A stretch of DNA of 64,000 bases from Haliclystus octoradiatus. Lineage: Eukaryota > Cnidaria > Staurozoa > Stauromedusae > Haliclystidae. Each line of letters opens with the position of its first letter. The stretch's first letter is position 1. Shown one piece after another: positions 5,723 to 52,431 of the stretch. Position numbers and translations under genes: made by a program. The stretch lies in contig OU744447.1 of assembly GCA_916610825.1 (NCBI GenBank), forward strand, positions 7,881,402 to 7,945,401. The letters are read 5' to 3'. The notes under the pieces were generated by a model. The model searched no databases, had not been told where the DNA came from, and saw only the letters and a list, made by a program, of their open reading frames with translations.

Positions 5723-5924
5723 TCACATGTAAATATCATCATCAGCAAAGTATTGAATTGGAAAGGCGAGAGTTGTATCTAAGTCTGCATTATGTATCCT
5801 TAACGATTGTTTGTGATAGTGATTAATCAGATCAGGTAACGTTTTGTACTTGTTGTAAGGTTCTGCAAATCCATAGCCGTCAGGACCACATTCGATTGTT
5901 ATATGTTTAATAGAGTTATCATGG
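5723..5924 (-). CDS. PIK3R1: PIK3R exon 23: end of cSH2 and stop
   Basis: Acceptor [29 protein letters not shown] matches p85 cSH2 ([15 protein letters not shown]), followed by TLAFPIQ as in TLAYPVY. The protein ends FADDDIYM, stop TGA at 5725-5723. I see no clear AATAAA immediately downstream. Confidence 0.95.
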
Positions 5925-23900: not shown

Positions 23901-26900
23901 CGCTTAAAGTTTACCTTGATTTAGAGCAGTGCGTAACGTTTGAAAACCAGAATATTGTGGATATACAAAGTAACAGTCTTTCTGCAGTGACCCTCGCTTC
24001 TCCAATACTTCAAGGCATTTACATACTATTGGTGGGAGAAGTTCATTTATCTGAGGCTCGATTCCAAACGATGGGACTGAAAATAAAATATAAAAGATCT
24101 TCAGATGACAAGAATTATCACCAGTCTTTTATGACAAACCCTTATGTAAATGATTGCTATTTTCTTTGATTGAGATTGGGCTAAAAGAAATGCAAATATT
24201 TTTTCTGGCCCCTTTTTGTTAAGTTTATACATCAAAGCCAGAAAAAAACAAATGAATACAAAGACTTTATGTTTTATCTATCTGGTCCTACGGGTTTGAT
24301 TCCTCCTCAATGCACACATGTTTGTATATATGTCTGTGAATGTGTTATTAGCTCTGAAAAGCGCATTGTCATACTTGATGACAACTCTTTGTCAAGAACA
24401 CGTCATGTATATTAGTACGGTATGTCTCCACGATGAACTGATGGTATGAAGTAGCACATAAAATAGATCATCAACTCAGTGGAGATATTGTATCACACAT
24501 TGATTCCTCTGGAATATATTCCGGCCCTCTTAAACGCAAGAGATCAAAACAAAACAACTAAAATTTACATCATCGAATCAAGTGAAATTTCTTTCTAGAT
24601 TTGTAAAGAGTGTCTGCTGACAGGCACAGACAGGCAGTTTTACTGCTACAAAACAGTTTATAGCTACAATGAACAAGCACTTGTCCCTACAGGGTGACTA
24701 TCAGTTAATTAACTGCAAATGGAATATTATTGTTGATCTGAATTGGATATAAAGGTCTACAGTTGGGACATATGATGTTGTAATCTGTTTGAAGAAATCA
24801 AAATATCTGAAGTTTGATAATACTTTTATCATATTCCTTCGTCTCAAATTATTATAATTACTTTCAAACAGTTATGTTCAAATCAATATTGTGACTGATT
24901 CTGTGATTTTCTTAATTGGAAATTGATTGAACTAACGTGCATTACACTGAATTCTATGTGTAACAGCCACCTATAAGGTCTAGATAAATTGACCACTATA
25001 GACAGGTGGTTTTTTAACAGGGTTTTTTTAACTCTGTTTACTCATCACATCCATCAATAAAAATATCATTTTCTTCTGAATTTACTCAAATCTTCTGGCA
25101 TTAGGTTTCTTTTGGTTGGACTCTTTACAAGAGTATGCTAAACATAACGTACCTTCTGGGTCGCTTGAACGCCGTCCACGTCGATATTTCTTTTCACAAA
25201 AATCTGTCGTACTTTTGCCACAGTATCGATGACACTGCAAGCCACAATCTTCAAAAAGAAGAAAAAAAAATATTTGTTCGCCACTTAATGGGTTTGATAG
25301 TAGAAGACTCCAGTATTCTAAGTATTGTTTCATTTGAAGAGATCAGGAGACGCTGGGGGATATTTAACAATGTGAAATTGAAAAAGGTAACATTCAAAAT
25401 TGTGAATCTTTCTTTAAAATACAAAAAGGACATATAAGAATAGAAATGAATTTTATATAACGAAGCAATATCCCAACATTCGAGATATACACTTTAATTT
25501 TATATAATATTATTTATCAAAGTAACATATCGCACTACAATGAAACCTGTATATATTATAGTAGCCAGCTAAGAGAGGTAGAGAAATTGACCAATATAAA
25601 CAGGTGGCCTTTCTATACAGGTTGATTCAATAGAAAATACTGTTTTAGACAAGACCACTCTAGACAGGTGGCCGCTGTATAGAGGTGACTGTTATATAGT
25701 CAAACCTGTTATAATGGTCACCTCTATACAGCGGCCACCTGTCTATAGTGGTCACTCTTGCAATGCCTAAAATAGTATTTTCTATTGAATCAAACCTGTA
25801 TATAAAGGCCACCTGTCTATAGTGGTCAATTTATCTATCTCTAGAAACTGGCCGTTATATACAGGTTTGACTGTAATAGGTTTGATTGTACCTACCTGTA
25901 CATATCAAAGCTTGTTTTAGAACTCCCAAAATCATCTTCCGGCATATGTCACAAAATTGAAATGATGAGAATGTGTGATCTTTAAAAGCGTGTTTGACAA
26001 CTAGAGATTCTAAAAGATTAAACAAATAAATAAATATGTGTTTCTCACCTTATATCAGTGTTCGTTTATACCTGGCATTTACACAAATACATCTAAGTAT
26101 TACCCAAGTTTTAAGTGATTTCTACTCGATGAAAACCGCGTAAATTCAGTGAAAAACATTTGAACAATTTGTTATGTCCCTTGAAACCTTGTATTGTTAT
26201 AACCTATAACGTGTAAGAGGTCAACACATTTTCCCGTAGAAATCCTTCCAATCAAGATCAGACAAAAACAAAACTCTTGCTGTGATTTTTATTCAGAAAA
26301 TTAAGCAATTGAATCTATAGTATACAAATGCAAGATCAAGTTGGCTTTGAAATATACAATTTTTGTTGCTATAAAAAGATTGAAATCAGAACAGAGTGCA
26401 TTATTACTATGATTACGAAAACACAAAGTATTTTATAATTTTACAGGGTATGTAATCTACTGCTGCCTAGTCTGTCCATGGGTTAATCAGACACTGGGTG
26501 AGGCAGGCAGCAGAATTAATAATCAATGTTTACCTTTGCTATCCGTTTTAAAAACTGATAATAGATCTGTTGGAGGATTCATTTCATTCTAAAAATTCAA
26601 AACAAATTACCGTTGAATTTGCATGTAATAGCTAGCTGTTGGAATCACAATGTGACAGCTACAGATAGGTAGCCTAAACATCTTATTAAAGAATATTTAA
26701 ATGAGAACCAAATTATTTGTAAGATTTAAAGGACTTACAGTCGAACTCAGTTAATATCCCCTCTTTTAATGTCCCACCTTGCTTAATATCCCCACATGAA
26801 ACTGATATTTATGTTCAATAATACATACAAACTTTCATATTCTACCTCTCTTAACACTCAATATCCTACTTGGGGCTTAATGTCCCACTTTTCATCCGTA

Positions 26901-29900
26901 CACGAGGGGGGGGATTAAGCAAGTTCAACTGTACTATGGAATAGTGAACAGCGGACACTATCATCAGTTGGACATTGAAGCATGTTTTAACTACAACAAG
27001 TAACCAATGGGGACTTCAATTACCACTGTATGGGTCATCCAGAAATCTTGTCTGGGATGTTTGTGTGTAGAATTTCTCCTATATTCAGAAAGTGGGTTTG
27101 ATCTAGCAGCTATTTATCAGAGCAATTGCTTAAAAGATTAATAAATGAGAATATATAGATATTACACATATTCTGATAGCTTAAGTTAGAGTGAGGAAGA
27201 AAAGTGAAAAGGTTTTATTCAATTTGGATGCATATAAGTGGCGATATTTAATATAGAAAGTACGCTATTTTTGACAATTCCCTTTCTCAAAACTCCAAAC
27301 GAAAATCGGAATGACGAGAGGGCTTACTATAGGAGAAAGATTGTCACTCCTTTCACAAAACCAAAATTTTCAAAGTCAGACTTCCTACACCTTTGGGCCC
27401 TTTTCTTTGCTTGAAATGTTTTAAAATTATTACGAAATAAATGAACCACAAGGGCTTTTAGTAGAAGAAAAATCGTAGTCAAAAAATGCTGTTTTAGATC
27501 AACAGTCCCTTTCAATGCATTAGCGTGTGAGCATTGTACAAAGATGTGTTTACCTTTTTCGTATCTAGAAAGGATTCAAATAAACAATATCCAATCATTT
27601 TGACGTGGACATCGTATGGTATACCAATATGCTAAAAAGATCAAAATAACTACATAAATTCATCAGGGCCAACCTAATTAATTAACATAATTACCAGCAA
27701 TAATTAATTATTCAGTCTTCTAGAATCCTAAGAACACTTCAACATTTTCTTCTGATTTTCTTTTGTTTAAAGGCAATTAAGAGAATTTATAAATCATAAA
27801 AATATCAATTTTCTTCTGAATTTGATCTAGCCTTTCGGAATCTAAGACTCCTACCTTTGTCGGACCTTGATCATTACATTATAATAAAGGGTTTAATTTG
27901 AATTCTATGCGAAAAATAGACAATATGGCATGACTCCAAATAATTAAAATGGCAAATTTACAGGTCAGTTTTACAAGTTTACAGAAAGCTGCAAACATTT
28001 TTATTGCAGGATAGCCCAATGACCCGGAGATGTGATTTGCAGAACAAATTAGAACGCTTTTTACTAAAAATATTAATAACATCATTTTCTTATTTAAAAT
28101 CAGCTTTGTTGGATTTCAATTGAATTTCTTCTTAAATACATGTTAGTCATCATGAATCATGCTTCAAGGTTAGTAAAATTTTAACAACTTCTGGTACCGT
28201 AATATTTCTTCTAAAATTTCTAACTTAAGAAGATAAAAATAATTAAAGAAGGTTGTCATAGATCTAACCGTCTGGTTCTTCTAAAACAGGCGGCTAGGTA
28301 CAACAAGTACACCTCTTTTGCTTTAAATTGATTCAACACATGCGATTATGAACAATACGTAACTTAGAAATATTACCTAAACATAAATAATGAATAACGA
28401 TTATAAATTAATATTATCTAGAGACGGTACAAGGACTTGAACCTGTTAACTCCACACATTAGTCAGACGCATTAACCGCTACGCTATAACTGCTAATAAC
28501 TTATGAGACACAAAAGTATTTAAACATGACCAGGTTGTATCACGTGACTGGACCCTAAGTCATAGCGGGTTCCTAACATCCTTGATCTAGTTTCGAGCCT
28601 TGTGATGGTCTACCGTGATCAAATGTTGAGCCTTGTGATGATCTGCTCTGAGCTACTGTCAAGCCGTGATGATTCGGCTAGGCCGACGTGTTCTACCTAT
28701 CCGCTTGTTTCTTTTAAGATTAACACCATTGCGACTGACATTTTGGATAGCCCAATTCAGAATTAAATCAATTTATGAAACCCCATCAAGTATACATAAA
28801 TAGTACCAGCCCTGAGTTTTATTGGGAGGTTTAAAAATGCTTGGGGTGGTACGCAGGCTACATGAATAGCTGAAATAAAGAATATTTCACCTTAAAATCA
28901 CCATCTTGCATTACAAGCAATTCAGCGCCACTAATTTTAGCATCTTTGAAAAGGAAAAGGTACTCATGAAACCTAAGCGCTGCTAACCATTCTAAAACCT
29001 CACTAACAGACCAATCTTTACAATCCTAAAACAAAATGACATAATTTAAAAATAAATTAGAATACAAGTTAAATTTATGTATCAAGTTTTTGTTTCATGT
29101 TTCGTGGTTTGACTTGTACAAGAAAATTCTGAGTCCCAGGATCTAAGATCCCGGAAGTCTGAGCTAAACTGACGAAAATCAGAAGTTTGTAGCTTTTGTT
29201 AAACAAATTTAGTAGGATTTGAATAGACCTCTTGACTTCAAAAATTTTTTTTCGATTCCGAAGCTAGATCACAACATTTTATTTGTGAATTGTGATGTAA
29301 ATTGGATTTGATTTTCTTTTAGATGATTTTAATATAAGACTTTGGAATTGGAAATGAACAATCAAGGATGATTTATGCAGCAAAAGTATTCAGTAATTTA
29401 TGCAGTAAGATTCTGCCCCAGTTGATGTCACTCTTGGAATCCATTGAAATCGGATTGTTTTAATGTATTAATTAATTTGTTAATAATAATTAATAATTAA
29501 TTGTCTTATTTTTGTCATTGGACCCTGTCTGGGCCTAGTCTGCCATGATCACTAAAGCAAGCACTTTACCTTCTTTCTTAGGTCTCAGTGGAATGAAATG
29601 AATATGAAATCACTATCGAATTCATACCCGCAGTCAATTTTCTGTCTATCCAATCTGAAGCACACCTTTACTCCACAACAATTAACATCATAGGATCTTT
29701 AAATAATAAATCTTTCTAATTCTTAAGTATTTTGAAAAAAACATACACAACAATTTAAAACAAAATGCTTGTTTCCCTGAAAGCAAAAATCTTTACGACA
29801 CCACGAGGCTAGAGTTACACTCACCTTTGTTATATCATTCATATCCATGGGTGACAAAGCAAGATTCTTTTCACATTTGTTTTCTCGGAAACATCTCCAA

Positions 29901-32900
29901 CACTCTGAATGAACTATTAAATGACATTCTGTGAAATTGGAGAAAATTAAAATGTCAATGTTTATGCTACTGCAATCAATATTAAATTACATTTTTGCAA
30001 ACGTTAGAAATTAAGCAAGGCAGAATATGAGAGCTTACATAGAGAATCAGAACTACAGGCAAACCTGTATATAGCAGCCACCCATGAGAGGTAGATAATT
30101 GACCATTATAAGCAGGGTACGATAAAAGCAGGAATCCTGGAATCCTACATTTGAAAGTTAGAGCAAATTCAGAAGAAAATTGATAAAGTGATGATTTATT
30201 GGTCAAACATCAACAAAAAAATTCAGAAGAAAATGTTGAAATGCCTCTAGGATTCCAGAAGGCTGAACCTTTAATCGGACCCTGATTATAAACAAGTGGC
30301 TTTTATATACAGGGTGGATTCAATAGAAATCACAGAGAGTGACCACTATAGGCAAGTGGCCACTGCATAGAGATAACTGTTGTAATAAATTTGATTGTAG
30401 AAATCAGTCAGGATCGTTTTTGCACATTCTGGGGTAGGGTAGGCACTTTTCTGTGTGGAGGGATGGTGTACTGTACAATAAAACCTGTATATAGCAGCCA
30501 TATACAAGAGGTAGATAAATTGACTGTTTTATGCAGGTGGATTTTATAATACAGGGTCATTTCAATAGAAAATACTATTTTGGATAACTATAACAACAAT
30601 GACTAATATAAACAGGCGGATGCTATAACAGGTTTTAACTGTACTGGAGCTCATACAAATTTTAAAATTTGCCTTGCTTTCTATAATTAGCTTAATTTTG
30701 TTCAAAATATCAATTAACAATATATACACAGTCATAATGGTTACTACTATAAAGAAACAGCGACCACTACAGGAGTTACGAGTCCCCCCATTATTTTTTG
30801 CCATATAATATCACTGATCTCAGGTGCATTAAATTCCAACTGCAATAAAATAATAATTGAGACGGTATCACCCTACCGGTGGCACCCGTACCATTCCTCT
30901 ATTTCTAGAGGAGTGGCTCTTTTCACTGAGAGCTATGATGATAAATGCTCTTTATTGATCCCAACCTCGAAACTGCATATTAATTTCAACAGATTTCATG
31001 GCAGATAGGCCTCGATTGTCAATGCGCATTGAAGCGTCTCAGCTACTCACAATGGAATTCCCTCTGGACCATTCCATCCACCATTCTTAGATGGTACTGA
31101 TTGATGTTTTAGATAAAATCAATGCTGAATTGACTTTCCAGGGATTTGAACCACAGTTGATCAGATCTGATCTGATCTGAAGTTCGCTTGACATCTGAGC
31201 TAATCCTCCATCAAAGCATTTCATAATGTTACTACATATCATTTAGTAGAAGTTAAACACCAGGCCTTTTGGGGTCCGCAGTACGGCCCACACAGTTTTT
31301 CTAGTTTGCTGTTGCATTGCTTGGAGGCGTGGCGTTAGATACCGCAAGGAATGCATGCACGGGAATTGCCTCGTACGAAAGCTGGCATTGTATGGCCAAT
31401 CTCTTGTCCATGGCATAGGGTAAGTCTTGTGACATAGTAGGGCGTAATCATTCTTGCATGTGCTAGCCTGCTAGTAAGTAAGACACGAACGAACGATAAT
31501 CAATTGAAATTATTATTTAGTTATGCCTCGACTTTCACGTAATAGTCGCGATGCTAATGCTTCTGCACCTTATGTTATTCCTGCGGCTTCTACGCTGCAG
31601 TCTCCTGTTCAATCACCGTCTTTTACAACTTTCTTTGGAGATGCTCAACAACGTCAGAATTTTGTGAATGATGTGGCACAGGCGGTCGTGGCAGCATCAA
31701 GACCTCCAACATCAACGTCGGTAAGCGCTTCTTCAGCTGGTACCGTACCTACAGTGAACGTAAACATGGATCAAGGTATGTCAGAACCTATATCTTTGCC
31801 ACCATTTGTAAATACTTTCTCCTCTCCGCTTCCCAATGGTGATGCCGTTGCAGCTGCCTCTGCCTTTTTATCGGGTACTTCGGTCATCAATCAACAGGAG
31901 AATACGGCCACCACCAGCAGTCCATTTCCAACATCGTCGCTAGTGTTTGCACCGTGTATCATAGGACCTGGGTACGCCCCTATTCCTTCAAAATTGGTAG
32001 GTCAAATTGTCAGTGGTCGTTTCGTAGACCTGGCAGAACTGTTGTCTCCCTCAGTGGTGGATGTCGAAGCTCAACCTCAGTTGATCATGGATGGTCTAGC
32101 GGTTTTGATTGCCAAGCCCAAATCAAACCGTCGTAAGATCGACAACATCGTAGGATGGATAGAGGCGTTCACGATTTATACGTCTATTATGACTACTCAC
32201 TGCCCTGAACGCTGGAAAGACTTGTCGTCCTACAAACTGGTTATTATTAAACTCTTTCGACAATTCAGTGGCTGGGCATGGTTGTCGTATGACACAGCCT
32301 TTCGACAACATGCCTACGCTAGTCGGTTATTTGATTGGTCACTGATCAACAACCAACTTTACACTTACCATACGGCTGGAGCAGCTGTCCGTCCTCGACT
32401 GGATCGGAACCAACAGGAAAAAATCAGTAGAGAGGCACGAGGTACCCCCAATGGCCCACGAGTTTGTCCTTCATGGAACGAAGGAAGATGTTCCTCGCGT
32501 TATGCAATTTGCCGATGGAGCCACATTTGTTCTACCTGCTCAGAAGGGCATCGCAGTATGGACTGTCCTCGAGAGTCAAAGCAGTTCATCGCCCCAGCTA
32601 CGATACCTCCAGTCAAGGCCTCTGACGGCAGGCAGTGGCAACGGCGTTAACTCGTTGACATGTTACTTTAATATTTTGTGTTTTATAATAATTCTGCTAT
32701 TGGACGTGATGATTCAGCAAACCATCAATTGTTAGCTAAATTTATATTCACTGTGTTCACAGTCCTATTCTGTAATTATTGTGTAGCTCACTTTGTTTTT
32801 CTTATCATTATTACCATTGTTTTTTTTTTTTTTTTTTCTTTACTGTTGGAATATTTTACTTGCAATCGATACAGTTCAGTTTTTATTTTTAATTTAATTT

Positions 32901-35900: not shown

Positions 35901-38900
35901 CTCCCTTCAATCAAGGTATATTTATCGGCTGTCAGAGCGCTTCATATTGAGCAAGGTTTTGCAGACCCACTACTACATTGTCCTCGCCTACATAGACTAT
36001 GTCAAGGAATCAAACGATCTCAGATCAACAAAACAAATCCTAGGGTACCAATAACGGACTCAATTATGAAAATTATTCATCAGTCATTAAATCTGCTCCA
36101 GGACGACCACATTATGTTTTGGGCGGCCTGTACGTTGGCCTATTTTTGATTTCTTCGGTCATCAGAATACACAGTAACAAATTTGCTAAGTTTTGACCCT
36201 GCAATTCATTTACAGCCTGCTGATCTATCATTTGATTCACAGTCAACACCAACTTGCATGCGGATTCGGATCAAGGCATCAAAGACGGATCAGTTTAGAC
36301 AAGGTTGCTACATTCATATCGGCCTTGGCTCATCCAGTATCTGTGCTATTTCAGCAATGTCAGCTTACCTTCACAAGCGAGGTGATAAATCTGGACCTCT
36401 TTTCCTTCTTTCATCTGGTCATCCCTTGTCTCGTAACTACCTGTCCAACTGGCTGCGCTCCATATTAGTGGATAATCAAATTCCTGGATATTTCTCAACC
36501 CATAGCTTTCGAATTGGGGCTGCAACAGTGGCGGCTCGTAATGGGATTCCAGATCATGCCATCAAGGCAATGGGCTGCTGGCGTAGCCAAGCTTATCAGC
36601 TGTATACAAGGACGTCTCCAGCATCGCTGTCAAGCTTCTCCCAAGTCCTATCATAGATTGGGTTCTTAAGAAATTGCTGCTGTTAGGTGCTTGGACATGA
36701 TGGGGTGGGAGTTACAGACGAGGAACCTGTACCTCCTCTCCAAGCACACTGGAGACAATGTTGGGGGAAACAGGTTAGCACGAGCTTAGCTGCCTAACGA
36801 ACGAATGAGTAACTCCCACCAACCAAGCACCAATCCCAAAACCCCACCAAAGGGTGAGGAGTTTAAATGTTACTACATATCATTTAGTAGAAGTTAAACA
36901 CCAGGCCTTTTGGGGTCCGCAGTACGGCCCACACAGTTTTTCTAGTTTGCTGTTGCATTGCTTGGAGGCGTGGCGTTAGATACCGCAAGGAATGCATGCA
37001 CGGGAATTGCCTCGTACGAAAGCTGGCATTGTATGGCCAATCTCTTGTCCATGGCATAGGGTAAGTCTTGTGACATAGTAGGGCGTAATCATTCTTGCAT
37101 GTGCTAGCCTGCTAGTAAGTAAGACACGAACGAACGATAATCAATTGAAATTATTATTTAGTTATGCCTCGACTTTCACGTAATAGTCGCGATGCTAATG
37201 CTTCCCAGCCCACCCTCACCATAAGTCAATAGGTCATGTTTGTCAAGTTTACTTTAAGTAGCTACAGATTAACTTTTATTTCAACAGGGTAGTTGTAATT
37301 TTTCCACTGATTATCAGTGTGACGGTGCTTGGTTCGAGTGGGGGAAACAGGTTAGCACGAGCTTAGCTGCCTAACGAACGAATGAGTAACTCCCACCAAC
37401 CAAGCACCAATCCCAAAACCCCACCAAAGGGTGAGGAGTTTAAATTTGTACAAAACGTACGCATCAGAAACATAAGGCGTGTGATGGCGTGCGATTTGTT
37501 ACTGGTGATAAATACTAGCTAAACATCAAGTTTATTATTTAAAGTTGAAGATTTTATATGCATGGTAAAAAGAAATTCTGCTTTTTTTGATGTAATATTA
37601 AAACAAACATAATTTTGAAAACACTCCTGCCTGATGATCTCAATTCACAATTATTCGCTTGGTTGATTCTAATGAAAACAGGAAATTGAAAGGAGATAAC
37701 TTTCTAACAATAGTACAGAAGGTGTTGAATTTCAATGCAATAAACTATATGCTTTGTTTGCTTTATTAATGAAGCTTCACATTGATAAATTCGAAAATGG
37801 GAAGGAAAGAATTTTAAGTCAAGTTAATATTCAAATGAATATCGGTACCAACAAAATAATGAAAAACGACATGAGTCAAATGAAAAAAAAAAAAAATGTT
37901 TATAATCTTTTTATTGGAAAGTAGGCGTGCAAAATATATTGCACGCCTTGTAAGGTGTGCGCGTGCGATCGCACGCCTCGGAATACAAGCCATGTTTGTA
38001 ATTGGAAGAATGGAAAAGAATTTCACAATTGGTTTATGTCATAACCAGCACATTTCAATGGTGTCAAAATTATTGATTTGAAAATATTTTGATTCAAATC
38101 AAGCGCATATTCTCCTATTTTCATGACAGGACTTCCAGTTCTTTGACATGAGGAATAGTACCACAATATGTATTTAAGAGAATCTCAAAGAATTCTAATG
38201 TCGATTCTAGCCTTCAGTGAAAAGGTATTCTCATAGCTGGTGTGCTATGGCATGTTTGTCTGAATTTCAAGACATTTTTTTTTTGACCAATTAGATTCAG
38301 GAATAAGATGTAAAATTTTATTCACCGATTATGTGAAAATGAATATATGATAAACTGTCTATCAGTCCCCGAGAATGAAAAGATATATAGTAGAAATATT
38401 GTGTTACCTGTACAGTAATATGAGAAACGGTTCTTTCCCCATATGAATTCTTCACCTGTAATCAATGAGATGTAAAATTAGTAATGTAATCAAACACTTA
38501 ATGGAGGCAATATGGAGGTTTAGAATTAGTACAGGTACAGCTACGAGTACAACTTTCTCGTTGCGCATCACTTCTGCGCATTGGGGGAAGCCACTTTGCT
38601 CTGACACATGTACTATCTTCCTCGTTTCGGAACACCTTTCGGCGCGCGAAACATGAACCATGGAGTAGGCCTACATGTTTTGATTTCATTGTTTTGGTTT
38701 ATTTTGGTTTTACTTTCGCCATTTTTTGAATAAAATTGTCCCCATAAAATTTATACATTAAATCATAATGCTGTAATAATTTCTGAATTTTGTTTTTACC
38801 TGGAAAACAGAAACTGAGGTTTTACTTTATTGTATCTAGATGTCTTGTTTTGAAAGAAGGAGTACCGGTATAACCCAGTCTTCCTATCGAATAAACATGA

Positions 38901-41900
38901 CCTTGAACCGGTACCGGTACTAAATCTAATCCTCCTTAATAGCCTCTACATCATCAGGGTCCGACAAAGGTTCAGCCTTCTGGAATCCTACAGACATTTC
39001 AACAACTTCATTCAAATTTTTTGTTGAAATTTTACCAATAAATCATAAAAATATTACTTTTCTTCTGAAATTTGCCCTAACCTTCCGGAATCTAGGAATT
39101 CATGATTCTTATTTTTGTTGAACCATGAATATAGGCTACAATTAAATCTTACAGGTGGCATTACATTATAGTGATAAGCTATGTGATCTAATTATTGACA
39201 CTATGAATCTTGGATATACGTGCAACCTGGCTCGATATGTGCAACTCAATTTATTATGGTGTACCAAGTTACCTTATTGAGAGCAAAATATGAACATGTC
39301 ACACCTATACTGTATGAACTTCACTGGTTACCAGTTAAAGTGCACATGACAAGAAAAAAAATTATCACAGATTCGAGTAGCTGAAGCTAAATGATGAAGA
39401 ATGGTGATTAATGATTTCTTAGTTTGAACGCGTATAATGCGGGTATCAGCGGCTTTCCCGGGGGGTGACCCCCGGGGTTTGCAAAACAACCTGTGCAAAA
39501 GTCAATTAACCCCCTGGGGTATGGGAGTAATAATTTCCAATAATCCCCCTCCCCCAGGAACAAAAAAACGTATTGAAAATGATGATTTTTTTAAATTTTC
39601 TTACAAAAGATTCAACAACAATACACAGATAATTACACAATTGTACAAAACTTGTTATAATTTTAATTGTTGTTGTTATAACTTTTATTAAAATATCAAA
39701 ATTCCATGCGTTGGAGATAGGCATATGCGAATATTAAAGATTACATGTCAAGTCAAAAAGGGCAATTGAAAAATTCCCTCAGAGGAACATGTTCTGTAGC
39801 AGATCTCAACTAATCCCCCTGGGGTCACACCCCCCCCGGAAAGCCGCTGATACCCGCATAAGCAGACTAGCAGAGACATTTTATGTTGCATTACCCTATT
39901 AAACTCATCCACTGATGAGCTCTGGCCTAGGTGCTTGGTTGGTGGGATATCTATTTTATACTTTATGCTCTATATATTTTATGCTTTCAACATGCTTTTA
40001 TACTCTATAAGCTTTTATGCTCTTTATGCTTTTATGCTCTATATGCTTTTATGCTCTATATGCTTTCTATATGCTTTTATGCTTTCTATATGCTTTTATG
40101 CTGCTATTGCTACTGCCGAACCTGTCACACTCCATATATGGATCCCTGTCCAACCAAGCACCTGTCACACTGATAACCAGTGGAATTAACTATCATTAAT
40201 CAACTTACCAACACTTACCCATATGTGGACAAAAGAACTTACCAACCTGAAAACCTAAAACATTGCAAGGGAAAGGGAGGGTGGGGGAAATCGAGTTATG
40301 TGAATAATATATATAATAAAAAATTTAAGAATAATAATAACAGTAAAAATTGCTCTGCCAAAAAACTTGCACACAAAAGGCTCAATCAAACTTTTGCTAC
40401 CGCTAACAACGCTTTCCTCTAAAGGAGTGACTAACCCAAAACAAGGTGTGCCTAAAGTAGCACATTGTTTCATCCTTCTTACCCAGGCTCTTCCATCTGT
40501 GCTGCTTACCTTATTTGGTATAAAATAGCTTCCCACGCTGTTATCTAAACTTTGTTACTTACGTCCGTAATCTAACGGATGTGAACTAACTCCCACCTAC
40601 GAAATGAAAGCTAGCCCCACTAGAAAGGAGGGGTTTCGATGAGCTCTGGCCTAGGTGCTTGGTTGGTGGGATATCTATTATATACTTTATGCTCTATATA
40701 TTTTATGCTTTCAACATGCTTTTATGCTCTATTGCTCTGTATGCTTTCATGCTTTTGTAATGCTTTTATGCTCTATAAGCTTTTATGCTCTATATGCTTT
40801 TATGCTCTATATGCTTTCTATATGCTTTTATGCTTTCTAAATGCTTTTATGCTGCTATTGCTACTGGCGAACCTGTCACACTCCAAAACTGGAATGGTAT
40901 TGAGTATTGAACTGGTACTAAAATTCCCCAGAAACATTGATATAGGTTCTGCTCATTAACTCTACTGTACTGTGGAAATTGGAAATACTGATAGGTACTG
41001 TAATATAAATTTAAAAGCTACCATTGAGCATTGTGGCAATTCAGTATAGAATATCCTATTCAATACACTTTCAGTAAGTTTACAGTATATTTCAGTTTAG
41101 TGTGAGCTGATTGTGATAGACTGACAAGGCCTTTATGAAGTCATTGTCTTCAATCTTAATATATAAAAGGGAGCTGCCGAAGCTGTACGTTTATCCATTA
41201 ATTTGTCATCTTCAATCAATTTTTTTGTAAATTGTACAATTATAACCATTGATTTAAATAAACAAGAATAGCCAAAGTAACAAGTTATGTTTCTATTTGC
41301 TATTTATCTGTGCAGTTCATTAAGAGGTATGATATTTCAGCATGCGACTATATAATTACACTATACAGTACTGTACATTACTTATTCTAAATATTGCTAT
41401 TAGACAATTTTACTTACAGTATTTACACCATGTTGCTTTGACTATTGATTCTGTTTTCACATAATGACCATTTACAAGAACTTTGGTACGTTTTTCTGAA
41501 TGATAAAAGATAAAACAGTTTTTAAATTTTGCAAGCCTATCAGTAGATGCTATTCAGATCTATGTAAGTAAGGCATATGCAACAGACTACAGATATAAAA
41601 ACTGTTAAAAAAGAAACTTCGTGGAATATTCGTGGCTGCTGGTTCTGCATAAGTTTAATATTTAAGCCAATATCGCATATAGAAGATTTAAGCAACATTG
41701 GCAATTGAAATCTACAATGTCTATCAACAGGGTAGCCTATGGCATGGCTCACTCAGTTGTTTTTTATTACCATGGACTGCAGAGTCTTATGTTTTATATG
41801 TGTCAAAATCACATGACATCTACACAGGGCTATCTGCAGTATGATTACTGTGCTAGGTAAGCATGCCTACAAAAGTTCTGCTAAGTGACGGCCGTACAGT

Positions 41901-42714
41901 AGCCTGCATAGTATAGCAGCAGAAGTGCGCCTGACACAATGAGGTCCAAAAGTTTCCCGTTATTTTTCGGTAAATGTTCAATATTTTCTAATCTCGTAGT
42001 GTGAAATGAGATTTTTCCACAATTGAGGCATTTTGAAATTGTTATATTTCCTGACAGATAGAGAGGTTTACCTCGATAGTCGCTATTTAAAATTTATCTC
42101 TTAATGTTAACTACGATATTGACTTGATGACCCTGGAGACAAACTGTATCATTTGCTACTGCAGACCTTTTGGCTATTTTGCCTATTCATGGATCTGGAA
42201 TATGGATGAAAAGTTTCTTGGAAAACATCATACTTTTCCACACAAATTTAAATTAAAATAATATTTTTGCTTTTGTATTGAGAGTAGGCCAGCCTATACA
42301 CTATACTATTTTAAAATTCATTTACATTTGTTTTGGAAACACAGCAGCGCATCTACGGAAGCGTCATAGCGATTGTAAACAACGGATTATCTGAAACGCC
42401 AGGACATTTATTGAAATTGAGTTACGTAGACGTTCATAAAACAACATTTGATTTGGCCACCTACCGGGACTCTTGACGGAGCCAGGTTTTGTTGATCTAG
42501 GTGGACGAGGAGGAAGACTAACATGATTACAATAGTTCCCTGGAAATTCACCAATTTCTCCTGTTGTTTTATTTTCTCCTTGCAGCCAACCTAGTGTATT
42601 CGCAACAGTTCCCGTTACTATACAGATATCGTTTTTCTTCAAAGCAATCCTACCAGTTGTGTCAGGTATATAATCTGAATGAGCTACAAAACGTGTAACA
42701 CCAGTATTAGACAT
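5723..42714 (-). CDS. PIK3R1: PI3-kinase regulatory subunit p85-like gene (whole model, 23 coding exons)
   Basis: Class IA PI3K regulatory subunit: binds and restrains the p110 catalytic subunit through iSH2 and recruits it to phosphotyrosine proteins through two SH2 domains at the membrane. Exons (minus strand, 5' to 3'): 42465-42714, 41418-41495, 38408-38455, 29825-29928, 28891-29025, 27554-27631, 26534-26588, 25896-26009, 25153-25248, 23915-24076, 22857-22994, 20607-20712, 18816-18898, 18084-18186, 16566-16658, 14600-14780, 14197-14310, 13144-13262, 12501-12677, 8858-8896, 7696-7794, 6916-7011, 5723-5924. All junctions are GT-AG, phases agree and the sum is 2670 nt (889 aa plus stop). Domains: SH3 about 7-66, C1 94-144, SAM about 164-228, C1 256-305, BH about 324-475, nSH2 about 508-604, iSH2 about 609-757, cSH2 about 783-880. 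It is the single ortholog-like counterpart of vertebrate PIK3R1/2/3. The C1-SAM-C1 block is not in vertebrate p85. Exon 1 may be preceded by untranslated exons. Confidence 0.9.
6525..6700. repeat. Hairpin element in PIK3R intron
   Basis: Imperfect palindrome: CACAGTTTCCTATGAGGTAT mirrors ATAGCTCATAGAAAACTGTG; arms about 75 bp. Confidence 0.7.
6916..7011 (-). CDS. PIK3R1: PIK3R exon 22: cSH2 with FLMR
   Basis: Acceptor TTTATATTCAG, donor [21 protein letters not shown] is the SH2 phosphotyrosine pocket. The invariant arginine (R809) is kept although FLVR is FLMR. Confidence 0.92.
7119..7277. mobile_element. CAGT family MITE in PIK3R intron
   Basis: Complete but diverged (CAGTCAAACTTGTTAAAAC, TTTCAATG), about 100 bp upstream of cSH2 exon 22. 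Confidence 0.7.
7696..7794 (-). CDS. PIK3R1: PIK3R exon 21: inter-SH2 tail and start of cSH2
   Basis: Acceptor CTTCACAG, donor GTGAGA. A proline-containing linker ([17 protein letters not shown]) leads into WMMSGRFTK, the first strand and helix of cSH2. Confidence 0.8.
8159..8302. mobile_element. CAGT family MITE in PIK3R intron
   Basis: Opposite orientation (CAGTGAAACATGTATATAAC first), with a short internal deletion. Confidence 0.7.
8858..8896 (-). CDS. PIK3R1: PIK3R exon 20: end of iSH2 (micro-exon)
   Basis: A 39-nt exon with acceptor TTATTTACAG and donor GTAAGT. It encodes [12 protein letters not shown] and has the phase-2 entry required by exon 19 and a phase-2 exit matching the next exon. 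Confidence 0.7.
8998..9229. mobile_element. Short TIR element, hAT-like
   Basis: Ends TAGTGCTGTTTGAT and complement TAGTGCTGTTCGAT, with TATCACTC near both outer flanks. A further TIR element lies directly to the right. Confidence 0.6.
9247..9541. mobile_element. hAT-like MITE with 8-bp duplication
   Basis: 295 bp with about 45-bp inverted ends (TAGCCTGCGTGCAGACAGAC and mirror) and ATTATGAC on both sides (9239-9246, 9542-9549), the 8-bp target duplication typical of hAT. Confidence 0.85.
10029..10204. mobile_element. CAGT family MITE in PIK3R intron
   Basis: Complete copy ending AACAGGTTTGACTG-TA. A degraded second fragment follows to about 10306. Confidence 0.75.
10742..11060 (-). mobile_element. 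tRNA-derived SINE (family S2), diverged copy
   Basis: Right end reads on the minus strand as GGATTAGCTTGGATGGCA (box A) with GGTTCAAATCC (box B) near 11000. Body shared with 15472-15830. Confidence 0.7.
11298..11448. mobile_element. CAGT family MITE in PIK3R intron
   Basis: Left end complete, right end lost after AATGGTCAATTGATCTACTT. Confidence 0.7.
12501..12677 (-). CDS. PIK3R1: PIK3R exon 19: iSH2 coiled coil, second helix
   Basis: Acceptor TCTTTAG, donor GTATGT. It encodes [16 protein letters not shown], then [18 protein letters not shown]. The motif M-R/K-P-x3-L-x-K resembles NSIKPDLIQLRKTRDQY of p85 iSH2, including the region that contacts the p110 C2 domain. Confidence 0.85.
12892..13068. 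mobile_element. GGTCCGAC family MITE, diverged
   Basis: ATTCTGAAATCCTAC...TTTACTTGGACCATG; left end degraded. Just left of iSH2 exon 18. Confidence 0.6.
13144..13262 (-). CDS. PIK3R1: PIK3R exon 18: iSH2 coiled coil, middle
   Basis: Acceptor TTTTTCTTCAAG, donor GTAAGT. A charged helix [20 protein letters not shown] and further EEQLRLTV continue the iSH2 coil. Sequence identity is low, as usual for iSH2. Confidence 0.8.
13276..13596. repeat. Tandem duplication carrying half of a CAGT MITE
   Basis: 13276-13445 and 13446-13596 are direct repeats (ATAAAATGTAATTGGTCGTT start), each ending in a CAGT-family half element (GACAGGCGGCCTTTATATA). It lies directly upstream of iSH2 exon 18 in the intron. 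Confidence 0.7.
13672..13918. mobile_element. CAGTAG-rich TIR element (first copy)
   Basis: GAAAATCTGAAACCTACTC at left, CCCAGATTCATAGTG at right, many TTTTCAGTAG units inside. Confidence 0.6.
14197..14310 (-). CDS. PIK3R1: PIK3R exon 17: iSH2 coiled coil, start
   Basis: 38 codons, phase 0 at both ends, acceptor TTTTTCATAG, donor GTAAGT. Heptad-rich [19 protein letters not shown] occupies the place of the first iSH2 helix that grips p110. Confidence 0.8.
14600..14780 (-). CDS. PIK3R1: PIK3R exon 16: nSH2 C-terminal half
   Basis: Acceptor TTGTTAACAG, donor [26 protein letters not shown] and the later [12 protein letters not shown] match p85 nSH2 (KGGNNKLIKI, YNPKLDVKL). This is the strongest single identification in the gene. 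Confidence 0.96.
14823..15052. mobile_element. CAGTAG-rich TIR element (second copy)
   Basis: CACTATAAATCTCGG at left and AAATTCATAGTG at right; lies 43 bp upstream of nSH2 exon 16's acceptor. Confidence 0.65.
15472..15830 (-). mobile_element. tRNA-derived SINE (family S2)
   Basis: Minus strand begins TGGGATTAGCTCAGATGGCA, a clear tRNA box A, then GGTTCAAATCC box B. The 3' part ends at GGCGACACCGTC. Best-preserved copy; lies in the PIK3R intron between exons 15 and 16. Confidence 0.82.
16566..16658 (-). CDS. PIK3R1: PIK3R exon 15: nSH2 with FLVR
   Basis: Acceptor GTTACCAG, donor [21 protein letters not shown] is nearly identical to p85 nSH2, with the phosphotyrosine-binding arginine at residue 535. 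Confidence 0.95.
17663..18026 (-). mobile_element. tRNA-derived SINE (family S2), beside PIK3R exon 14
   Basis: Same body as 15472-15830. Its tRNA end lies only about 58 bp downstream of the exon 14 donor. Confidence 0.8.
18084..18186 (-). CDS. PIK3R1: PIK3R exon 14: linker and start of nSH2
   Basis: A basic PPKRK linker and a serine-rich stretch precede [11 protein letters not shown], which matches the WYWG-I-R start of p85 nSH2. Donor GTATGA. The acceptor is a tandem CAGCAG (NAGNAG), allowing inclusion or omission of one alanine. Confidence 0.9.
18816..18898 (-). CDS. PIK3R1: PIK3R exon 13: end of BH domain
   Basis: Acceptor TGCTTTACAG, donor GTTTGA (weak). It encodes [20 protein letters not shown], resembling the final helix of RhoGAP domains, then a polar linker towards nSH2. 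Phases fit both neighbours. Confidence 0.65.
19865..20145. mobile_element. CAGT family MITE split by a nested element
   Basis: Left part 19865-19977 and right part 20114-20145 are parts of one copy. The insertion between them is described at 19978-20108. Confidence 0.7.
19978..20108. mobile_element. Nested TIR element with TATAG duplication
   Basis: Ends GGCGTTTTCACA and (complement) GCGCATTTTCACA, flanked by TATAG on both sides inside the CAGT MITE. About 130 bp, non-coding. Confidence 0.7.
20236..20440. repeat. Dispersed repeat R3
   Basis: GAGCTCAACTTGAATTATGA...ACGATCAATGTCATTCATG...GCGCGTAGAGCCCACC. Shared with 46921-47120 and, inverted, 63263-63475. Confidence 0.7.
20607..20712 (-). 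CDS. PIK3R1: PIK3R exon 12: BH domain, divergent helices
   Basis: Acceptor CATTTTAG, donor GTAAAT. About 35 residues including [17 protein letters not shown]. Alignment to other BH domains is weak here, and the segment corresponding to the RhoGAP N-L-x2-V-F-G-P-x-L helix is not obvious. Support is open frame, splice sites and phase (1 in, 2 out). Confidence 0.65.
20817..20987. repeat. Long hairpin element beside BH exon 12
   Basis: AGACACAAAGATGAGTCAAA and mirror at the outside, AAACCGTCTGATGAACGCAA near the centre. Near-perfect stem of about 80 bp, about 105 bp upstream (transcript sense) of exon 12. Confidence 0.8.
21650..22095 (+). repeat. Degenerate Ngaro-related terminal region
   Basis: ATTCCACTGACTTAGCAGTG then GAGCTTGGTTGGTGG and CCCACCAACCAAGCACC, as in the Ngaro right end. 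Confidence 0.5.
22857..22994 (-). CDS. PIK3R1: PIK3R exon 11: BH/RhoGAP-like domain core
   Basis: Acceptor TTCTACATGTAG region, donor [23 protein letters not shown] is very close to the p85 BH helix with YLLDLPNPVI and to the LK-x-YLRELPEPL block of RhoGAPs. This exon identifies the region as a p85 BH domain. Confidence 0.88.
23226..23401. mobile_element. CAGT family MITE in PIK3R intron
   Basis: Complete, diverged copy between BH exons 10 and 11. Confidence 0.75.
23915..24076 (-). CDS. PIK3R1: PIK3R exon 10: N-terminal part of BH/RhoGAP-like domain
   Basis: Acceptor ATTTTCAG, donor GTAAAC, phase 1 in and out. It opens with [15 protein letters not shown] and a helix ending LEKRG, the start of a RhoGAP fold. 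The catalytic loop of active RhoGAPs (G-I-x-R-x-S-G) is replaced at residues 353-363 by [11 protein letters not shown], which has no arginine. Confidence 0.82.
25153..25248 (-). CDS. PIK3R1: PIK3R exon 9: end of second C1 domain, basic tail
   Basis: Acceptor TTCTTTTTGAAG, donor GTACGT. It completes the second C1 with [10 protein letters not shown] and a last cysteine after seven residues (C305), then a basic stretch [10 protein letters not shown]. The full pattern over exons 8-9 is H-X12-C-X2-C-X13-C-X2-C-X4-H-X2-C-X7-C. Confidence 0.88.
25540..25693. mobile_element. CAGT family MITE (first of an adjacent pair)
   Basis: Reverse orientation, right end truncated by the neighbouring copy. Confidence 0.72.
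25697..25873. mobile_element. CAGT family MITE (second of the pair)
   Basis: Complete. It ends 22 bp from the donor of C1 exon 8 (25896), so it forms the beginning of that intron. Confidence 0.78.
25896..26009 (-). CDS. PIK3R1: PIK3R exon 8: second C1 domain, N-terminal two thirds
   Basis: Acceptor TTAATCTTTTAG, donor GTAGGT. It encodes H256, twelve residues, C, two residues, C, thirteen residues, C. Key pieces are [13 protein letters not shown] and the final ICT before the split codon. The spacing is exactly canonical for a C1 (PKC conserved region 1) finger. Confidence 0.88.
26534..26588 (-). CDS. PIK3R1: PIK3R exon 7: linker between SAM and second C1
   Basis: A 55-nt exon with acceptor GAATTTTTAG and donor GTAAAC. 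It encodes about 18 linker residues ([18 protein letters not shown]). Support is splice sites and phase (0 in, 1 out) only, since the linker itself has no recognisable domain. Confidence 0.6.
26738..26931. mobile_element. CAGTCGAAC TIR element (mariner-like MITE)
   Basis: Ends CAGTCGAACT and AGTTCAACTG with TA outside. Interior repeats of TTAATATCCC and mirrored GGGATTAAGC. 194 bp. Confidence 0.7.
27554..27631 (-). CDS. PIK3R1: PIK3R exon 6: SAM domain, C-terminal helix
   Basis: 26 codons, phase 0 at both ends, acceptor CTTTTTTAG, donor GTAAAC. It begins [13 protein letters not shown], the G-I-x4-H-x2-x-I pattern of the last SAM helix, directly continuing exon 5. Confidence 0.78.
27713..27868. 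mobile_element. GGTCCGAC family MITE, left end degraded
   Basis: TTCAGTCTTCTAGAATCCTA at left and CTTTGTCGGACC at right. Confidence 0.65.
28427..28500 (-). repeat. tRNA-like sequence (SINE head or tRNA pseudogene)
   Basis: Minus strand has TAGCGTAGCGGTTAATGCG (box A-like) and AGGTTCAAGTCCTTG (box B) at tRNA spacing, but the acceptor-stem ends do not pair well. Confidence 0.5.
28891..29025 (-). CDS. PIK3R1: PIK3R exon 5: SAM domain, first two thirds
   Basis: Exactly 45 codons, phase 0 at both ends, acceptor TTGTTTTAG. The residues [15 protein letters not shown] begin a sterile alpha motif: W-S-V-x2-V-x2-WL-x2-L, then an F-x-Y-x3-F helix, an I-S-G-x2-L-L helix and an acidic D-x-D turn. SAM domains usually self-associate or bind other SAM domains. 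Confidence 0.82.
29825..29928 (-). CDS. PIK3R1: PIK3R exon 4: end of first C1 domain and linker
   Basis: Acceptor AATTTCACAG, donor GTGAGT. It completes the first C1 finger: C127-H128...H132-x2-C135, with the last cysteine after eight rather than seven residues (C144). A linker [13 protein letters not shown] leads to the SAM domain. The intron upstream (29929-38407, 8.5 kb) contains the Ngaro/DIRS element. Confidence 0.8.
30058..30401. mobile_element. CAGT family MITE split by a GGTCCGAC MITE
   Basis: Halves 30058-30114 and 30284-30401 flank a complete GGTCCGAC family element at 30115-30283. Confidence 0.7.
30115..30283. mobile_element. GGTCCGAC family MITE nested in a CAGT MITE
   Basis: Complete, reverse orientation, ends GGGTACGATAAAAGC and TTAATCGGACCCTG. 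Confidence 0.72.
30475..30641. mobile_element. CAGT family MITE in PIK3R intron 4-side repeats
   Basis: Diverged complete copy about 220 bp left of a SINE. Confidence 0.68.
30861..31210 (-). mobile_element. tRNA-derived SINE (family S2) adjoining the Ngaro element
   Basis: Box A region is partly deleted (AGCTCAGATGTCAAGCG on minus). Ends 16 nt before Ngaro repeat A1. Confidence 0.78.
31227..31563 (+). repeat. Ngaro left repeat A1
   Basis: It begins TGTTACTACATATCATTTAG and extends 41 nt into the gag ORF. Repeated at 36868-37204. It probably holds the promoter. Confidence 0.92.
31523..32650 (+). CDS. Ngaro ORF1, gag-like protein
   Basis: 375 aa from ATG 31523. A low-complexity Ser/Thr/Pro N-terminal half is followed by a conserved middle ([20 protein letters not shown]) of the kind found in DIRS/Ngaro gag proteins. 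A C-terminal cysteine/histidine cluster follows: [19 protein letters not shown], then [16 protein letters not shown], a zinc-knuckle-like nucleic-acid binder. The start codon lies inside repeat A1. No break was seen. Confidence 0.85.
   Translation: MPRLSRNSRDANASAPYVIPAASTLQSPVQSPSFTTFFGDAQQRQNFVNDVAQAVVAASRPPTSTSVSASSAGTVPTVNVNMDQGMSEPISLPPFVNTFSSPLPNGDAVAAASAFLSGTSVINQQENTATTSSPFPTSSLVFAPCIIGPGYAPIPSKLVGQIVSGRFVDLAELLSPSVVDVEAQPQLIMDGLAVLIAKPKSNRRKIDNIVGWIEAFTIYTSIMTTHCPERWKDLSSYKLVIIKLFRQFSGWAWLSYDTAFRQHAYASRLFDWSLINNQLYTYHTAGAAVRPRLDRNQQEKISREARGTPNGPRVCPSWNEGRCSSRYAICRWSHICSTCSEGHRSMDCPRESKQFIAPATIPPVKASDGRQWQRR
32651..34116 (+). other. Ngaro gag-RT spacer with T-rich tract
   Basis: About 1.47 kb without a supported ORF. 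It contains a GTAAGT at 32939-32944 and an almost pure A/T, T-dominated tract at 33768-34019 just before the RT frame. Possibly an intron-like region; the function is unknown. Confidence 0.5.
34117..35715 (+). CDS. Ngaro ORF2, reverse transcriptase and RNase H
   Basis: 532 aa open frame. RT motifs in order: [33 protein letters not shown], and the catalytic YLDD box in [10 protein letters not shown]. RNase H follows with [28 protein letters not shown] and GIADALSRF, giving the acidic residues of the active site. The frame shows no ATG before TTG 34117, and the open region is preceded at about 34104 by a T-rich stretch and TCTAG that look like a splice acceptor. ORF3 overlaps its 3' end in another frame. 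Confidence 0.92.
   Translation: MPPISSITPLKADRFAYYLAYHPNPHFTNYVVNGIQAGFKLGFNHRQSLKPAKKNNQSAHKYSSVIDAYLSNEVQLGRVAGPFRNPPVEGIQVSSFGVIPKKNQPGKWRLIVDLSAPTGLSVNDGINKLDFNFNYVQLDQIISMVKDLGVGALMAKFDVESAYRNIPVHPDDRFLLGMKWRNNYFMDLTLPFGLRSAPFIFNSVAEAVEWILSYHFHVSNIVHYLDDFVMAGPAKSDICLRQWSLAQEVGKELGLPLNPKKCEGPSTSMLVLGIELDSATQTARLPADKLANLHSLIQSWVLKQGCNRNQLESLIGHLHHAAKVVWPGRTFIRRMLDLLSCFRSRRHPIRLNQEFRQDLFWWRDFLHQWNGVSFWLFPGMPTDSKFEMFSDASGQAGYGAYYQGNWFNGHWTPYQAKQSIAYKELFPIEVAAHTWGSDWTRSQVLFRCDNIAVVHILNCRTSKVPIIMRLVRNLLFVAAKLNFSFSSQHIAGVNNGIADALSRFHWQAFYNRAPTAKNHLMQLDNQLLMKLA
35631..36656 (+). pseudogene. Ngaro ORF3, tyrosine recombinase with one internal TGA
   Basis: It overlaps ORF2 by 85 nt. The N-terminal part has a core-binding region ([19 protein letters not shown]). 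The catalytic half has [15 protein letters not shown], the GCWRS motif and the nucleophile tyrosine in YQLYTRTS. Arginine I lies in FLRSSEYT, just after an in-frame TGA at 36147-36149 that interrupts [11 protein letters not shown]. Frame is kept on both sides, so this is a single nonsense change (or readthrough) rather than decay. Confidence 0.88.
36763..36867 (+). repeat. Ngaro repeat B1
   Basis: It starts GGGGGAAACAGGTTAGCACG and ends at AGGAGTTTAAA. It contains CCCACCAACCAAGCACC, a motif scattered elsewhere in the window. Confidence 0.9.
36868..37204 (+). repeat. Ngaro internal repeat A2
   Basis: Second copy of A1. It abuts B1 directly at 36867/36868, so the B1-A2 junction mimics the joined ends of a circular intermediate. 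Confidence 0.92.
37340..37444 (+). repeat. Ngaro terminal repeat B2
   Basis: Second copy of B1. It ends the element, followed by TTTGTACAAAACG. Confidence 0.9.
38408..38455 (-). CDS. PIK3R1: PIK3R exon 3: middle of first C1 domain
   Basis: A 48-nt exon, acceptor TGATTACAG, donor GTAAC. The split codon from exon 2 gives the second cysteine of the C1 pattern, then [14 protein letters not shown], so the third cysteine follows after 13 residues as in canonical C1 domains. The IWG corresponds to the L-x-G loop common in C1 domains. Confidence 0.75.
38957..39127. mobile_element. GGTCCGAC family MITE in PIK3R intron 2
   Basis: Left end GGGTCCGACAAAGGTTCAGC exact, right end diverged (TTTTGTTGAACCAT). 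Confidence 0.72.
39438..39858. mobile_element. GC-ended TIR element with TAA duplication
   Basis: 421 bp, inverted ends TGCGGGTATCAGCGGCTTTC plus C/G runs, TAA on both sides. A 3-bp TAA duplication suggests Harbinger-type. Sits in PIK3R intron 2. Confidence 0.78.
39914..40890. repeat. Direct duplication with ATGCTTTTATGCTCTAT simple repeats
   Basis: 39914-40120 and 40638-40870 share GATGAGCTCTGGCCTAGGTG, a run of TATGCTTTTATGCTCTATA units and GAACCTGTCACACTCC, offset by about 724 bp. Confidence 0.75.
41418..41495 (-). CDS. PIK3R1: PIK3R exon 2: N-terminal half of first C1 domain
   Basis: Acceptor ATCATTCAG and donor GTAAGT. Only the frame demanded by exon 1 is open throughout. It encodes the start of a C1 zinc finger: histidine 94, twelve residues, then the first cysteine (ATWCKY). 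The exon is too short for ordinary ORF finding but is supported by phase on both sides. Confidence 0.8.
42465..42714 (-). CDS. PIK3R1: PIK3R exon 1: start codon and SH3 domain
   Basis: The ATG is at 42714-42712. The 83 residues form an SH3 domain. The segment [19 protein letters not shown] matches the p85 SH3 signature (GWL-G-N-TTGE-G-FPG-Y). A proline-rich stretch PPRPPR follows at residues 68-73, as in p85 where such motifs contact SH3 domains. The donor is GTAGGT and the exon ends in phase 1, matching the next exon. Confidence 0.92.
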
Positions 42715-49187: not shown

Positions 49188-49323
49188 AAGCCGGGTTTCC
49201 ACTTGACGAAAATTTCGCTGCAGCGAAAAATTCGCGGCTACTTTCGCGACGAAATTTTCGCTGGTTCATTTCCACTTGAAATTTTTTTCGCGCGCCAAAA
49301 TCTACGTTTTATGAAAATCCATC

Positions 49324-49982: not shown

Positions 49983-50116
49983 AGCCGGGTTTCCACTTGA
50001 CGAAAATTTCGCTGCAGCGAAAAATTCGCGGCTACTTTCGCGGCGAAATTTTCGCTGGTTCATTTCCACTTGAAATTTTTTCGCGCGCCAAAATCTACAT
50101 TTTATGAAAATCCATC

Positions 50117-50799: not shown

Positions 50800-50843
50800 A
50801 ATTTTTTTCGCGCGCCAAAATCTACATTTTATGAGAATCCATC

Positions 50844-51520: not shown

Positions 51521-51637
51521 CGAAAATTTCGCTGCAGCGAAAAATTCGCGGCTACTTTCGCGGCGAAATTTTCGCTGGTTCATTTCCACTTGAAATTTTT
51601 TTCGCGCGCCAAAATCTACATTTTATGAGAATCCATC

Positions 51638-52314: not shown

Positions 52315-52431
52315 CGAAAATTTCGCTACAGCGAAAAATTCGCGGCTACTTTCGCGGCGAAATTTTCGCTGGTTCATTTCCACTTGAAATTTTTTTCGCG
52401 CGCCAAAATCTACAATTTATGAGAATCCATC

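Follow-up and report, generated by a model that had tools for sequence, protein, structure and literature searches.

Within the window, by which we mean the whole 64,000-nucleotide stretch of Haliclystus octoradiatus DNA that was analysed, a p85-type gene is predicted on the minus strand, running from 42714 to 5723 in 24 exons (Table 1). GT-AG borders and a consistent phase are found at all junctions of the model (23/23), the start ATG at 42714 has an in-frame stop two codons upstream, and the only stop in the 900 codons is the one at the end, finishing at 5723. The encoded domains follow one another in the order SH3 - C1a - SAM - C1b - RhoGAP-like BH - nSH2 - iSH2 - cSH2. An earlier note on this DNA had described a p85 subunit with an inserted C1-SAM-C1 module at 25153..42714, a span that coincides exactly with exons 1-9 of the 24-exon model, and its assignment of C1, SAM and C1 domains to exons 2-9 is matched by both the gene model and Pfam. 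Its counts of 889 codons and 16 exons were too low. As a gene model derived from sequence, the p85 gene with C1-SAM-C1 is well supported, and we regard that observation as confirmed. An open stretch at 12131-12047 (minus strand), in phase after exon 19 and closed by a stop, could serve as an alternative terminal exon of a form that lacks cSH2; we judged it probably to be a chance occurrence.

Table 1. Exons of the predicted p85-type gene and the retroelement within its intron 3 (window positions; Pfam cut-offs in brackets beside the scores).
Feature	Position	Strand	Content and evidence
Exon 1	42465..42714	-	Start codon, SH3, short proline-rich end (PPRPPR); SH3_1 28.6 bits (22.9)
Exon 2	41418..41495	-	C1a, first part (H-X12-C-X2-C)
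Exon 3 (48 nt)	38408..38455	-	C1a, middle (X13-C)
Retroelement, presumably DIRS/Ngaro-like	31225..37445	+	Inside intron 3; not part of the p85 product
Exon 4	29825..29928	-	C1a, last part (C-X4-H-X2-C-X8-C); exons 2-4 joined, C1_1 36.3 bits (26.5)
Exon 5	28891..29025	-	SAM, first part
Exon 6	27554..27631	-	SAM, last part; exons 5-7, SAM_1 33.3 bits (23), SAM_2 33.5 bits (20.5)
Exon 7	26534..26588	-	Linker
Exon 8	25896..26009	-	C1b, first part (H-X12-C-X2-C-X13-C)
Exon 9	25153..25248	-	C1b, last part (C-X4-H-X2-C-X7-C), and linker; exons 8-9, C1_1 41.5 bits (26.5)
Exon 10	23915..24076	-	BH (RhoGAP-like) start; catalytic Arg replaced
Exon 11	22857..22994	-	BH
Exon 12	20607..20712	-	BH
Exon 13	18816..18898	-	BH end and linker
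Exon 14	18084..18189	-	Linker and nSH2 start
Exon 15	16566..16658	-	nSH2 (FLVRD)
Exon 16	14600..14780	-	nSH2, last part
Exon 17	14197..14310	-	iSH2 start
Exon 18	13144..13262	-	iSH2
Exon 19	12501..12677	-	iSH2, includes the position matching p85alpha Asn564
Exon 20	8858..8896	-	Linker; short, placed by phase and splice sites only
Exon 21	8072..8101	-	Linker; short, placed by phase and splice sites only
Exon 22	7696..7794	-	Linker and cSH2 start
Exon 23	6916..7011	-	cSH2
Exon 24	5723..5924	-	cSH2 end and stop codon

The complete protein and five separate pieces of it were scanned with Pfam, a check that the earlier note had proposed, and each of the five pieces passes its cut-off. Specifically, the SH3 domain occupies residues 10-58, the two C1 domains and the SAM domain score above their cut-offs in their own pieces (Table 1), and the BH domain matches RhoGAP with 67.7 bits (24.5). 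The whole protein gives SH2 in two stretches and PI3K_P85_iSH2 with 31.8 bits, barely above the cut-off of 31.5. The best solved relative is p85alpha (8.7e-79; taken as human), which aligns in three collinear pieces; for the nSH2-iSH2-cSH2 core the alignment covers 459-890. The nSH2 motifs FLVRD and NKLIK are preserved in this comparison, and the SH3 pattern GWL-G-N-TTGE-G-FPG-Y is common to the p85alpha SH3. The positions matching D560, N564 and K567 of iSH2 and K379 of nSH2, which we take to be p110-contact residues in p85alpha, read E, N, R and K, two being identical and two conservative, so that this contact set is kept. The protein has the nSH2-iSH2-cSH2 core of a class IA PI3K regulatory subunit (PIK3R) and also the SH3 and BH that characterise long p85, and the identification of the gene product as a p85-type subunit holds. 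For the SAM domain, which is recognised by its profile, the nearest solved relatives are those of liprin-beta-1, neurabin-1, DGKdelta and Shank3 (E 1.8e-4 to 2.3e-3).

Compared with known subunits, the protein shares the SH2-iSH2-SH2 core with Drosophila p60 and similar short subunits, which are not known to have SH3, C1, SAM or BH. Human PIK3R1 p85alpha has the same SH3, BH, nSH2, iSH2 and cSH2 in the same order, but human p85 is without C1 or SAM according to passages of PMC12817958, whereas the present protein has two C1 domains and a SAM. A review of p85 (PMC7458397) gives the standard architecture, and the words invertebrate, Drosophila and chimaerin do not occur in its main text as far as that was available. 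Relatives of the 60-aa exon 16 protein were confirmed for 0/5 pattern stretches in the viral_contigs collection and 0/193 in genome_contigs, and none was found in the phages collection; these collections do not hold animal genomes as such.

Whether the C1-SAM-C1 exons belong to the p85 gene can be judged from phase, strand, frame and coding bias, all of which support it. The exon 1 to 2 and exon 9 to 10 junctions are both phase 1 and both fit, and exons 2-9 form a cassette of 236 codons (708 nt) with phase-1 introns on either side. With exons 10-24 and their introns as the coding reference and the null, the codon usage of exons 2-9 scores 0.078 bits per codon in the correct frame, compared with -0.45 and -0.34 in the other two. 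When 1000 intron pieces of equal length were scored in the same way, their average was -0.355 and their maximum -0.058, and the exons exceeded 1000/1000 of them, although the test is a modest one because the pieces were drawn from the same introns that served as null. One could suppose that exons 2-9 constitute a separate gene nested within the p85 gene, given that the large intron 3 carries a transposon. However, these exons lie on the same strand as p85 with phases that fit at both ends, the open frame around exon 2 contains no ATG upstream before its stop, and the C1b-BH junction (exon 9/10) reproduces the C1-RhoGAP spacing of chimaerin; on these grounds we rejected a nested gene as very improbable.

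The weakest link of the model is exon 3, which adjoins the 8.5-kb intron 3 and supplies the missing part of the C1a zinc pattern. No other candidate exon of 48 or 51 nt in an 11.5-kb stretch does so. Some C1a-completing exon of this size arises in 13/200 dinucleotide shuffles, but in 0/200 when an acceptor score of at least 2 and a donor score of at least 5 are demanded; the real exon 3 scores 3.1 and 7.6. The large size of intron 3 is explained by the retroelement inside it, which accounts for ~6.2 of the 8.5 kb. This element, which we take to be DIRS/Ngaro-like, has a reverse transcriptase ORF (64.4 bits) and a tyrosine recombinase that a stop divides into two frames, the second part scoring 31.2 bits. 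Its split direct repeats are identical over 300 and 107 nt, and the element is therefore probably a young insertion.

The cassette that we assign to the p85 gene could nevertheless be optional: the gene would make both the long form and a plain p85 (SH3-BH-SH2-iSH2-SH2), with splicing choosing between them. Skipping exons 2-9 leaves the frame to the normal stop intact, and the same is true of exons 8-9, 5-6 or 2-7; therefore, a short p85 form may also exist. Yet the phase symmetry of the cassette (1-1) also arises from exon history without present skipping, and we consider an optional cassette a credible but somewhat unlikely arrangement.

To place the gene in its genomic context, the 262-Mb genome, in which the window corresponds to C2:7881402-7945401, was searched with parts of the protein. 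The nSH2-iSH2 search returned 10 matches, of which 5 are the p85 gene's own exons and the remaining 5 are weaker SH2 matches with 31-47% identity elsewhere in the genome. Six matches come from the p85 gene both in the C1b-BH search (9 in all) and in the search with exons 2-7 (9 in all, the other 3 being weak). A single p110-type p85-binding domain was found, with 62.3 bits. Since the searches score exon by exon and keep the best candidates only, all of these counts are lower bounds. When the iSH2 family was used as query, 3 matches were returned, all below the cut-off and none from the p85 gene, probably since its exons are short. Judging from the searches, the animal appears to have no p85 besides the long form.

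Both C1 domains retain all eight zinc ligands. Taking the C1 zinc pattern to be H-X12-C-X2-C-X13/14-C-X2-C-X4-H-X2-C-X7-C, we find that C1b fits it exactly and that C1a fits it except for X8, that is, one residue extra before the last Cys. The consensus of C1 domains that respond to DAG or phorbol esters is presumably Pro-11, Gly-23 and Gln-27, and by this consensus neither domain is of the typical responsive kind: the three positions read F-G-Q in C1b (2/3) and A-G-F in C1a (1/3). In addition, position 22 of C1b is Leu instead of Trp. The earlier note had suggested that the subunit could sense such lipids, a proposal that is weakened by the absence of Pro-11 from C1b and of both Pro-11 and Gln-27 from C1a, while Gly-23 and Gln-27 of C1b still speak for it.

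In its full form, that proposal would make p85 a DAG/phorbol-ester sensor whose C1 domains bring PI3K to membranes with active phospholipase C. It could draw on the complete zinc ligands of both domains, on the canonical spacing of C1b with its Gly-23 and Gln-27, and on the nearest solved relatives of C1b, PKCdelta and chimaerin (the match of C1b alone to PKCdelta being slightly better), both of which bind DAG. Set against this are Phe for Pro-11 and Leu for Trp-22 in C1b and, in C1a, the additional residue as well as Ala at position 11 and Phe at position 27. Furthermore, shrimp p85alpha expressed alone in High Five cells was mostly cytoplasmic, in an experiment for which the passages of PMC12817958 mention no DAG treatment. 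Because C1b keeps two and C1a one of the three consensus residues, DAG sensing by C1b may be possible, though it is not the likeliest role, and as a description of the whole subunit we find the sensor proposal unlikely. On the consensus, passages of a review (PMC5067486) speak only of select residues.

Two further observations concern C1 sequences in this genome. C1a and C1b each have an intron after C1 position 32, and since 9/32 genome C1 matches end at 32-34, this position looks like a general C1 feature. Separately, an identical score of 27.5 bits over positions 13-47 recurs in 12 of the 32 matches to the C1 profile, which lie in open frames of 170-461 aa across contigs; these 12 probably belong to a repeat family that encodes a zinc finger and are not C1 domains.

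The BH domain was compared, by alignment, with proteins of solved structure, C1-RhoGAP proteins among them. C1b and BH together align in one piece with the C1-RhoGAP part of beta2-chimaerin (8.4e-22) and with N-chimaerin (1.1e-20); for the latter the aligned lengths are 204 and 202 residues, and there are two gap positions. The BH domain alone matches chimaerin with 38.7 bits, ARHGAP15 with 35.1, structure 1f7c (which we take to be GRAF) with 33.8 and p85 with 33.7. For the BH domain of p85alpha alone, the best relatives outside p85 are myosin-IXb, ARHGAP15 and the chimaerins; two of these three are C1-RhoGAP proteins (myosin-IXb presumably has a C1 next to its RhoGAP), which fits a descent of BH from a C1-RhoGAP protein. 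RACGAP1, in our understanding also a C1 plus RhoGAP protein, is weak against both BH domains (at best 23.7 and 19.9 bits). The earlier note's hint that the p85 BH domain descends from a C1-RhoGAP protein thus gains support, short of proof, from the collinearity of C1b-BH with chimaerin, but BH alone does not single out chimaerin.

The protein differs from the chimaerins in several respects. The arginine-finger site of the BH domain (LYR in chimaerin) carries Phe in the chimaerin alignment and Val in the p85alpha alignment, with Arg in neither, whereas p85alpha BH retains an Arg aligned with the finger. Because the arginine finger is gone, GAP activity of the present BH is unlikely. Pro-11, Trp-22 and the catalytic Arg are all found in chimaerin and all missing from C1b-BH, although alpha- and beta-chimaerins have a collinear C1-RhoGAP. 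Chimaerins have an SH2 and an active GAP in the order SH2-C1-RhoGAP and are not known to have SH3, SAM or iSH2, unlike the present protein, in which no SH2 precedes C1b. Near C5:15338.3 kb of the same genome lies a chimaerin-like RhoGAP exon whose borders match those of exon 11 (both phase 1 by eye); as a mark of chimaerin descent these borders were rejected, given that similar edges (profile start 37-54, end 82-86) occur in 9 further of 42 genome RhoGAP matches. Over 18 kb upstream of that RhoGAP exon, tblastn and a pattern scan, which can overlook a split C1, gave no C1.

Our main reading, to which we assign a probability of about 0.8, is that the gene at this locus is intact and encodes a class IA PI3K regulatory subunit, with no second such gene found in the genome and with the order SH3 - C1 - SAM - C1 - BH - nSH2 - iSH2 - cSH2, in which the C-terminal half would act as p85, the extra half as a membrane/scaffold arm, and the module would be ancestral. 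The analysis itself shows a modelled gene structure, the domains, a copy number from searches and the collinearity with chimaerin, and p110 binding, the scaffold role and the age of the module are what we infer. In the predicted mechanism, iSH2 would bind p110 and nSH2 would hold it inactive until the SH2 domains dock on phosphotyrosine and p110 is released. The extra half probably serves as a membrane and scaffold arm. Within it, C1b and BH would form a chimaerin-type C1-RhoGAP unit minus the catalytic arginine, and because that arginine is lost, the unit would bind a small GTPase rather than switch it off. The SAM domain is predicted to pair with itself or with another SAM protein, and the C1 domains would add zinc-stabilised membrane or protein contacts.

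The earlier note had supposed that automated predictions in other invertebrates might already contain this architecture undescribed; it has, however, been described. Passages of a 2025 paper (PMC12817958) report that Penaeus vannamei PI3Kp85alpha, cloned as a full ORF (GenBank MH397365.1), has two additional C1 domains and a SAM that are absent from human p85. The shrimp protein is therefore p85-type with two C1 and a SAM like the present one, a likeness of domain set as those passages describe it; the SAM is there called N-terminal. The same passages speculate that the extra domains help virus use the protein, and do not propose them as ancestral. Hence the architecture is not wholly new, but of a known, barely described kind, at least as these passages present it. 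Passages of another shrimp paper (PMC13252836) mention the SH2 domains of p85 and not C1 or SAM. For Daphnia, a p85/p60 entry in the part of PMC2978223 that was available carries the figure 395; if this counts residues, it would point to a short p85 form, actual or predicted, in another crustacean, one that could not accommodate the long architecture.

Given the report, in the passages cited, of one SAM and two C1 domains in shrimp p85alpha, the module was most likely already present in the last ancestor shared by cnidarians and arthropods and disappeared on the lineage to vertebrate p85; this dating draws on two species. The module may thus predate the cnidarian-bilaterian split, and the presence of the long form in a cnidarian, as the only p85 found in its genome, suggests a great age of the architecture. 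Against common descent, it could be argued that exon shuffling assembled the module twice, independently in the cnidarian and the shrimp, since C1, SAM and SH3 are generally known as mobile domains, the phase 1-1 ends of the cassette are typical of shuffled modules, and the shrimp likeness, as described, is one of domain set. However, the same unusual set of two C1 and one SAM would then have entered the same gene family in two phyla, and we consider a separate origin improbable.

Building on common descent, we tentatively propose, at somewhat below even odds, that the ancestral animal p85 was the long form, made by fusion of a p60-like SH2-iSH2-SH2 core with a C1-RhoGAP protein of chimaerin-like type in which C1 and SAM were present beforehand. 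Cnidarians and at least some crustaceans would have kept this form, and the vertebrate BH would be the stump left after loss of C1a, SAM and C1b, so that human p85 may be a reduced form. PI3K would then first have been wired to membrane-lipid and oligomer scaffolds besides phosphotyrosine. Few signalling adaptors have been studied as much as p85, and the reason for its little-active RhoGAP-like domain is an old puzzle, to which BH as remnant of a C1-RhoGAP unit in a reduced vertebrate p85 would be a testable answer. It would also mean that PI3K control in invertebrates is not simply readable from the human or fly protein.

Several features were noted elsewhere in the window. A Sel1-repeat ORF at 47099-47602 (plus strand, 63.2 bits), by eye like the assembly factor COA7, is the neighbour of p85 on the opposite strand, and at 54295-55838 on the minus strand two pieces of an XPC-binding domain, one with 51.2 bits and the other, under the cut-off, with 20.5 bits, look by eye like a RAD23 gene. 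A LINE-type reverse transcriptase fragment lies at 44790-45719 (plus strand; 23.5 bits, below the Pfam cut-off). Five head-to-tail copies of a unit of ~0.73-0.80 kb occupy ~49190-53060; they are 67-100% alike depending on the register, with the last copy most diverged, and have recurring open frames of ~85 and 180 aa, one frame of 84 aa being without a Pfam match.

The assembly also contains an 18.3-kb mitochondrial contig (C33). AGA or AGG stands at three COX1 positions that we take to be conserved Arg, and TGA occurs inside the frame 8 times and is read as Trp. Two tRNAs were found, one of which ARAGORN names selenocysteine (anticodon tca) and which we read as tryptophan. A family-B DNA polymerase ORF (56.5 bits) runs off one end, an open frame without a Pfam match at the other end continues it by eye, and there is an inverted repeat of 0.74 kb. 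Arg for AGA/AGG in COX1, Trp for TGA, few tRNAs, a DNA polymerase B ORF and inverted repeats are, in our understanding, medusozoan traits, and the contig looks like a linear medusozoan mitochondrial genome that was closed on itself by the assembly.
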